The notes below the pieces were generated by a model. The model saw nothing but the letters and a program-made list of their open reading frames with translations, searched no databases and had not been told where the DNA came from. Positions 51,165-53,257 of a DNA stretch of 64,000 bases are shown one piece after another. The stretch covers positions 1-64,000 of the forward strand of contig JAEEYO010000061.1 in the NCBI GenBank assembly GCA_016288205.1, written 5' to 3'. Origin of the DNA: Treponema sp. Lineage in GTDB: Bacteria; Spirochaetota; Spirochaetia; Treponematales; Treponemataceae. The position numbers were made by a program, and so were the translations under genes. The stretch's first letter is position 1, and the number at the start of each line of letters is the position of its first letter.

Positions 51165-53163
51165 TTAATGATCGAAATTTTCACGGATGGTTTCGCTATG
51201 TTCAAGGATATCATATTTTCCCGCGTACATTTGTACTTCAACACCAAAACCGCTGCTTGGAATAAAATTCTTAAGTTCCTGAGTACATTGCGTTGTACCT
51301 TTCGAAATAGTTACAGTGTTGCTTTCCCAACCAGTTTTTCCGTTTTTCTTATTAGCATACCATTGGAAATAAACATAGCAATAGTCATAGTCTCCGATAG
51401 GCTCATCCCACTCAACAGTGATTTTCGGAGTAGAGCCTGACGTGAAGCTCTTTTCTCTGAGGTTCCTTGGAGGCTTTATGCAATCCAATGTAGAACACGA
51501 TTTATAAACCTCGGCTGTGTTACCGTTATAATCCTCGAAATATAGCATGAAGTCATATGTTGTACCAGACAGTAGGTCTGTAACAGTTTTTTCTGTTTCT
51601 GACGGTCCAGCGATGACAGAATTTGAATAGGATGAGTCTGTATTCTTCTTGTATTTTATCGTAGTTCGCTTTAAATCGTTGGACACATACGCACTTTTAC
51701 CTGTGTCATATTTCCAACTGAAATCCACTTTAATATCGGTAATGCCTGTGCTCTTAGGGTCGTCAACATGGGGAGCCTGTGTATCAATGTTAAAATAAAA
51801 TTTATTTCCGTTGGAGGGATATACAGTTGAATTGCCGCTCTTGTCCTTGAATTCGAACGTGAGGGCGTACACACCGTCCTCAAGGTTCATGTCGGAGAAA
51901 TCAAGGGTCTTGTTGCACTCCGCGTTCTCTCCCATTACACTCTGGTAGCTCAAGGATTTGGATGGGTATTCCTTCGACGTTGTTGTTGTCCATCCTGGGT
52001 ACACTCGGGTGTTACTATTGTCTACTACGCACTGGTCATAAGTGCCGACCTTCTGGAAATTTACAAGGAAACTGTCGGCGGGACCGCTTCCTGTATCCTT
52101 CACTTTGCAATTTATGCTCAGCTTCTTGATGTTGGCGTATGGAATGGAGGATGAGGCCCATGGTGATGTGGGGACAGCTGAGAGCGCGGTAAGGGTTGTT
52201 GTCCCGGTGGAAGTCACCAGCTTGACCTCGTTGCTCACCACTCCCGGGCTGGTTTTGTCCTCTGAGTTCGTGACCTGATAAATCCATTTTTTTCCGGCCG
52301 TCATGCATACAGGCTTGTCATCAACCTTATAGAAGAATCCTCTTTCAAGACTGACGAGAACCTGTGTCCATGGGGGAAGCAGTGCGTTGCCGTCGCTCTT
52401 TTTCACGGAGATCGAAAGCCTATGAGGATTTTCAAACATTGGTGCGGAAAAATAGTCGTTCAGGTTCTCCCCGGTTTCGTTGTTTGTTATTGAGATGTTC
52501 TTGAAAAAAGTTAATGTTTCCCCGTCTTTTACCTTTTGGTAGCCGTAGTATCTTTGCTGTCCGTTGGCATTTACAGGCGGCAAAAGGCTCACCCCGTAGG
52601 TATTCTCCAGCTTCCCGACCTCACCATCCGTGAAGTAGATTGAGTCCTCATTCAGGTCGTAGTCGAAAATCACCTGTATGGCAGAGTCCTTGTTCACTCC
52701 GTTCGTCTCAAAAAGCGGCGTGTAGGAAAGAATCTGGGGACGCTCGACAATCACCGGCTCAAGGCTGAGTCTCATGTCTCCGTCGGGTGCTTTTTTAAAT
52801 GTACATTCTGTCTCTGAATCTGTAAGGGTTGAAAGCTCAAGATATCCGTCGTCGGTGAGCTCGTTTCCTGTTGCGGAGTCCACGACCCTCCATCTGATGA
52901 ACTCACGGTCGCTCGCGGGCTCGAATCTTACGGTAAAAACGTCGGTCACTTTTTTGGAGACCTCTCCCCCGGCGGGTGATTTTATGATTCCGCTGTTCTC
53001 GGGGCAGTCCACGCGGATTGTGTAGGCGGGTGCATTGGCATAGGCAATCTGAGACTCAATCTCCTCTTTGATCTCAGCTCCGTCTAGGAAATTCTCACAG
53101 GAAGTAAATATACCCCCCCGTCAAAAGTATAGTAGCAAGCAGTGGCAAAGCAAACTTTTTCAC
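51165..53163 (-). pseudogene. Frameshifted (possibly phase-variable) lipoprotein with fibronectin-III-like domains
   Basis: The signal peptide begins at GTG 53163, after GGAGG with six-base spacing, and reads MKKFALPLLATILLTGG, then runs into a stop. A run of seven G (53119-53113) follows LLT. With six G the frame becomes ...GGIFTSCENFLDGAEI, giving a lipobox FTSC, and continues without a stop to 51165, 665 residues in all. As assembled, only a signal-less part from GTG 53012 (615 residues) is open. The mature part has an N-terminal FTVRFEPASDREFIRW module, Ig-like strands and fibronectin-III-like repeats (about 430-640; YDFMLYFEDYNGNTAEVYKS). It is probably a surface lipoprotein. A switch by G-tract slippage, or a sequencing error in the tract, explains the state. 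Confidence 0.85.
53113..53119 (-). repeat. Poly-G tract in the lipoprotein signal-peptide region
   Basis: Seven C on the plus strand, hence seven G in the coding strand, placed between the hydrophobic core and the lipobox. Six G restores the frame; seven breaks it. It is the longest G/C homopolymer I noticed in the window. Confidence 0.9.
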
Positions 53164-53257
53164 ATCAAGCCTCCAGTAGATAGGTTCATCTACAATAAAT
53201 TATAATGCAATACATGGGGTTTGTCATTATGTTTTGGAAAAAATTTGGAATTTGGAA

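Follow-up and report, generated by a model that had tools for sequence, protein, structure and literature searches.

A poly-G tract in the signal peptide of a Treponema lipoprotein family as a probable phase-variation switch, with a recurrent ACTATAC motif beside such tracts

The locus and its reading frames

The window, i.e., the whole 64-kb stretch of Treponema sp. DNA analysed here, contains a single G/C run of at least seven nucleotides. It is C7 on the + strand at positions 53113–53119 and is read as G7 on the minus strand, within the signal peptide of a lipoprotein-like gene. The locus comprises the following features.

53222–53227, minus strand: putative -35 hexamer ATGACA (promoter scan; the hexamers and their 17-nt spacing recur in paralogue C21a)
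53199–53204, minus strand: putative -10 hexamer TATAAT, spacer of 17 nt (promoter scan)
53170–53174, minus strand: Shine-Dalgarno sequence GGAGG (sequence)
53161–53163, minus strand: GTG start codon (the GTG and VKKFALPLL start is also found in paralogue C21a and in G005 C104)
53120–53163, minus strand: n- and h-region of the signal peptide, VKKFALPLLATILLT, with GTG read as Met (translation)
53127–53133, minus strand: ACTATAC motif, 7 nt upstream of the tract (motif recurrence)
53113–53119, minus strand: poly-G tract G7, the proposed translational switch (run count and frame reading)
53095–53097, minus strand: TGA closing the GTG-opened frame at the assembled tract length (translation)
53097–53099, minus strand: lipobox Cys codon of the body frame, FTSC (translation)
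51168–53099, minus strand: mature lipoprotein body, 644 codons, open (frame reading and family comparison)
51195–51473, minus strand: fibronectin type III domain (PF00041, E 5e-6)

The tract separates the frame of the GTG start from that of the lipobox Cys and the body. Read from GTG with the tract as assembled, the product is only 22 residues long, its stop being the TGA whose last base falls in the codon for the lipobox Cys. No stop interrupts the body frame across the tract. This frame starts ...GGIFTSCENFLDGAE, and its mature portion, counted from the lipobox Cys (53099) to 51168, has 644 codons and no stop, a length with a chance probability of about 2e-15 in random sequence of matching composition. 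A previous sequence-only reading had proposed that seven G break the frame between the signal-peptide core and the lipobox, that one G fewer would bring FTSC into a continuous frame, that the gene starts with GTG behind GGAGG and that the state seen is OFF. All of this was confirmed on the minus strand: the frame arithmetic and the lipobox are correct, and the assembled G7 puts the GTG and the body in different frames.

The best promoter-like site of the region, ATGACA-17-TATAAT (53227–53199, minus strand), matches 11 of the 12 consensus bases; in the scan overall, promoter-like sites were no commoner than in shuffles, and its role as promoter of the window gene is plausible, not proven. It lies 80–108 nt upstream of the tract and its spacer is of invariant length, so the tract is neither between nor beside the -35 and -10 hexamers, as it would be in promoter-type phase variation. 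As the tract is outside the putative promoter, the proposed switch would be translational. The Rfam scan of the window gave no matches.

The encoded protein

The lipobox Cys and the CxNFL start are conserved across 20 aligned members of the family, which marks the product as a predicted lipoprotein, and its natural reading is a multi-domain surface lipoprotein. The Pfam analysis showed one fn3 domain near the C-terminal end (residues 514–606 of a 615-codon ORF). The conserved N-terminal 430 residues had only weak Ig-like hits in Pfam, no match in NCBIfam and no sequence match in PDB, and the lipoprotein family is unnamed in Pfam and NCBIfam. The AlphaFold model built from eight relatives (mean pLDDT 74.6, pTM 0.48) consists almost entirely of beta sandwiches, and in Foldseek it matches Ig/FN3 chains best, at low TM-scores for the whole chain. 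The model supports the predicted domain type, a chain of Ig/FN3-type domains, but not the overall arrangement; the fibronectin-III-like domains of the sequence-only reading agree with the PF00041 match and the predicted fold. Among viral contigs, no relatives of the family were found.

A family of paralogues in the same genome

The genome is a 3.53-Mb draft assembly of 77 contigs. A search with the body sequence revealed five further full-length paralogues and one fragment. The 12-mer ACTATACTTTTG, located directly 5' of the tract, occurs in seven copies in the genome, each adjoining such a tract, and a search with it added two tract genes with more divergent bodies (C21 at 170 kb and C71), the products of which have N-terminal ends related to that of the window protein. 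The family in this genome consists of eight full-length members, seven with a tract and one, C48, without it. Both this multigene family and the recurrent motif beside the tract were missing from the earlier reading.

The position of the tract is the same in all seven members, within the signal peptide, and its length is G6 in C7, G7 in the window gene (C73) and C5, G8 in C71, G9 in both C21 genes (at 81 kb and 170 kb) and G10 in C6. At the genome's own rate, the probability of a G7+ run in any 60-nt stretch is 3.6e-4. As assembled, each of the seven has its start and its body in different frames (C71 when read from its own ATG), for which the probability is about 0.06 under random phase; the tract-free C48 is in frame. 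The bodies of the family are 496 to >950 codons long and free of stops and further frameshifts, and the fragment, C67, has a stop within its body.

When C73 was compared with C21 (81 kb), identity was 91% in the 100 nt preceding the motif and 83% in the 100 nt that follow the tract; it fell to approximately 50% farther upstream and to 56–64% farther downstream. From this pattern, we infer that the 5' switch region appears to have been copied between family members.

Tract length in related genomes

The same arrangement is present in related species and genomes of the genus, with tracts 5–10 nt long, both in and out of frame. Seven of the 28 lipoprotein-like tract genes are in frame, which is near the one third expected of randomised phase. 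The closest homologue found, L177 in G136, shares 80% amino-acid identity over 390 residues and has a different signal peptide and a G8 tract; a fixed, non-repetitive sequence in relatives, which the sequence-only reading had named as speaking against a switch, was thus not what the comparison returned. Two tract lipoproteins of genome G179, L094 and L122, are in frame and are related to the family of the window gene.

Orthologues were compared at all tract sites with aligned flanks, and in the key pairs both 600-nt flanks were at least 95% identical. The family lipoprotein L122, with G9, is in frame, whereas L178, with G8, is out of frame, at a flank identity of 95–98%; a second run within the same gene, G6, is of constant length. 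Likewise, a histidine-kinase locus has G9 in L098 and G10 in L162 (600-nt flanks 95–98% identical). Tract length was equal in L030 and L145 (flanks 94 and 96.5% identical) and in L100 and L174 (98.5%). Repeat length therefore differs between near-identical alleles both for relatives of the family and for other tract genes of other species, and the window locus itself has the form of a simple-repeat contingency locus, a homopolymer whose length sets the frame.

Tracts in other classes of genes

Tract-bearing genes encode acyl- and glycosyltransferases, DNA methyltransferases and surface proteins, which are typical contingency classes. An unrelated gene of the GH5 (cellulase) family carries the ACTATAC-poly-G module in three species: the tract is G8 and in frame in G202 (L248), but G9 and out of frame in both G009 (L249) and G214 (L250), with the G202 and G009 proteins being 97% identical. 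Phase variation of a glycoside hydrolase would be out of the ordinary for rumen bacteria. Most GH5 paralogues lack the module, and L254 (G120) instead has G9 in a TTGACA/TATAAT spacer. Where the tract copies have ACTATAC and poly-G, tract-free paralogues have an equally long stretch of ordinary codons, and on this ground an inserted mobile ACTATAC-poly-G cassette was rejected for the GH5 gene.

Some further loci are worth recording. A lipoprotein gene outside the family (L078 at 1502 and 1567; G000:C60:117317-117390, + strand) has two tracts, G7 in the 18-nt spacer of TTGACA/TATGAT and an in-frame G8 in the signal peptide, so that transcription and translation could both be switched. ACTATAC tracts are found in or beside restriction-modification genes, for a Type ISP protein, a D12 adenine methyltransferase and a Type I specificity subunit (L105, L117 and L118), which are candidate phase-variable methylation systems. 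Locus L059 at 3029 (G000:C75:81528) has G10 in the frame of a likely sugar or serine acetyltransferase, apparently out of frame as judged by eye.

The ACTATAC motif beside the tracts

In the source genome, ACTATAC is present at most 45 nt 5' of seven of the 19 G8+ runs and of none of the 685 G4–G5 runs; outside the lipoprotein family, it is near three of 15 G8+ runs (Fisher P 8e-6). Across 196 genomes of the genus, with a total of 6,712 G8 windows, ACTATAC-N2-22-G8 was found in 177 windows from 68 genomes, against seven windows in three genomes for the backwards pattern. ACTATAC-N2-22-C8, in which the word faces the tract from the other side, occurred in 141 windows from 50 genomes, against 15 in nine for the backwards control. 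In the sample chosen for the motif, the commonest spacing between motif and tract was 6–8 nt and the commonest tract length was 9.

The module spans unrelated genes, reading frames and promoter spacers. Some ACTATAC sites fall within coding sequence, where they are read in more than one frame; others are antisense to genes, at gene junctions or, in L136, inside a -35/-10 spacer. Conservation of the motif is therefore at the DNA level. Its occurrence is centred on certain species, and other species rich in G tracts have almost none, including in unbiased flanks from motif-poor genomes. Genome G221 has dozens of G8+ windows and none with ACTATAC 5' of the tract. In another family of the order, ACTATAC accompanies longer tracts, up to G22.

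Several accounts of the motif were rejected. The -10 box of a regulated promoter does not serve as a general explanation, as the L136 copy lies inside the spacer of TTGACA-17-TATAAT and others lie in coding sequence. A peptide constraint (Thr-Ile) agrees with 28 of 28 lipoprotein-like cases, but four of 12 other coding cases have another phase, and it is also contradicted by a further frame in L165 and by the antisense and extragenic copies. A hairpin of ACTATAC and GTATAGT is not general, the 3' half being present at seven of the 99 sites with the 5' half (expected 0.25). The motif is also not a genus-wide feature, given its species-restricted distribution and near absence from some tract-rich species.

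By its distribution, ACTATAC resembles a cis element belonging to the contingency locus and is possibly a site of binding or modification with an effect on slippage. Common descent of 5' ends through gene conversion might account for some of the pattern within families. In a fuller proposal, ACTATAC/GTATAGT would be a functional cis element, and the trans-acting factor recognising it would promote, limit or template changes in the length of the neighbouring poly-G; the module would then be programmed for hypermutation and more than a homopolymer alone. This is put forward tentatively, and we think it rather unlikely.

Two other flanks were also observed. In one species (G192), approximately 25 windows have the form G8-TA-N5-GTATAGT (L179, L182–L187), often near the ends of repeated genes and on short contigs. 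In the motif-poor species G143, the G runs of several tracts (L275–L283) are preceded by another shared 5' flank, GTACATCTGTATA; this may reflect no more than a gene family present in repeated copies, or it may be a flanking motif specific to the species.

Interpretation

The tract, the frames, the family, the recurrence of the tract and its length variation between paralogues and between orthologues are observed. Taken as a whole, they point to the window gene being, very probably, a slipped-strand contingency (phase-variation) locus. The phase-variation switch suggested by the sequence-only reading is supported by the G6–G10 tracts of the paralogues, by the share of in-frame tracts among relatives and by the length differences between orthologues. 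The constitutive-looking promoter would transcribe the gene, and the tract length would determine whether the start and the lipoprotein body share a frame, acting as a translational on/off switch. With seven tract-bearing members, many combinations of displayed lipoproteins would in principle be possible. Slippage would take place within the population, the product would be lipid-modified and displayed on the surface, and the benefit might be evasion of host or phage, or changed adhesion. A point against phase variation is that G7 is short for fast slippage.

Of the alternatives, readthrough of the tract by transcriptional slippage or ribosomal frameshifting, which would make expression graded rather than off, is the one that survives best, and we judge it improbable. 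Runs of about nine G could permit RNA polymerase slippage, and most tracts in relatives are exactly 8–10 nt long; against this, the length variation between close orthologues and the random-looking phases are what is expected of slippage on DNA, no conserved frameshift signal was found, and the window tract is just 7 nt long.

A decaying pseudogene family, in which the tract has fixed the gene off and nothing switches, could also be compatible with all seven family tracts being out of frame, and the stop in fragment C67 favours it as well. The intact bodies and the roughly one quarter of relatives' tract members that are in frame argue against it; genes silent for long would have lost such long frames, and decay is therefore very improbable. 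Just as improbable is an error of sequencing or assembly at a tract whose true length is single, fixed and in frame: homopolymers are error-prone, the draft assembly did break at a long G tract (contigs C40 and C41, L051 at 134 and L052, end in identical sequence at a G8–G12 run) and the deposited length at any single locus may be one error from the truth, but this alternative, raised already by the sequence-only reading, fails on the tracts of 6–10 G that seven paralogues and the assemblies of other species have at this position, on the mixed phases in relatives, on the same gene differing in length between species at near-identical flanks and on the tract-free paralogue being in frame, and an error at one locus would leave the family-level conclusion intact.

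Slipped-strand phase variation, the reading preferred here, is a mechanism of a known kind; the new parts are its family-wide deployment and the tethered motif. The full-text search of open-licence papers found no description of the family, the switch or the ACTATAC motif, and the text search for ACTATAC returned primer matches only. The ACTATAC-spacer-poly-G module provides a sequence handle for contingency loci in the order, reaching glycan-modifying enzymes, restriction-modification genes and a GH5 family gene, and it raises the question of whether a flanking element controls homopolymer instability.

Comparison with known systems

In the opa genes of Neisseria and the poly-G/C genes of Campylobacter and Helicobacter, a repeat early in the coding sequence makes the gene a translational contingency locus. 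The window locus resembles them: its repeat, too, is close to the 5' end of a gene for a putative surface protein, and the repeat length sets the frame. We know of no locus of this type with a conserved flanking heptamer common to unrelated genes.

Among cultured treponemes of the same family as the source, G/C tracts of at least seven nucleotides were counted in a comparison of bovine and human treponemes, in which the rumen commensal Treponema ruminis had the fewest (PMC8049484); the part of that study considered here concerns tract counts, with no lipoprotein switch or flanking motif in it.

In T. pallidum, the poly-G length in the promoters of putative surface-protein genes tunes transcription (PMC7864442). 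The tpr subfamily II genes, tp0126 and tprL are similar to the window locus in that a variable poly-G controls putative surface-protein genes in a treponeme (PMC7864442). However, the T. pallidum tracts lie in promoters and act on transcription, whereas the window tract lies in the signal peptide, would switch translation and belongs to a different protein family. Poly-G phase variation in treponemes has been studied in T. pallidum, and the present analysis probably extends it to a family of surface lipoproteins in uncultured and commensal gut treponemes.
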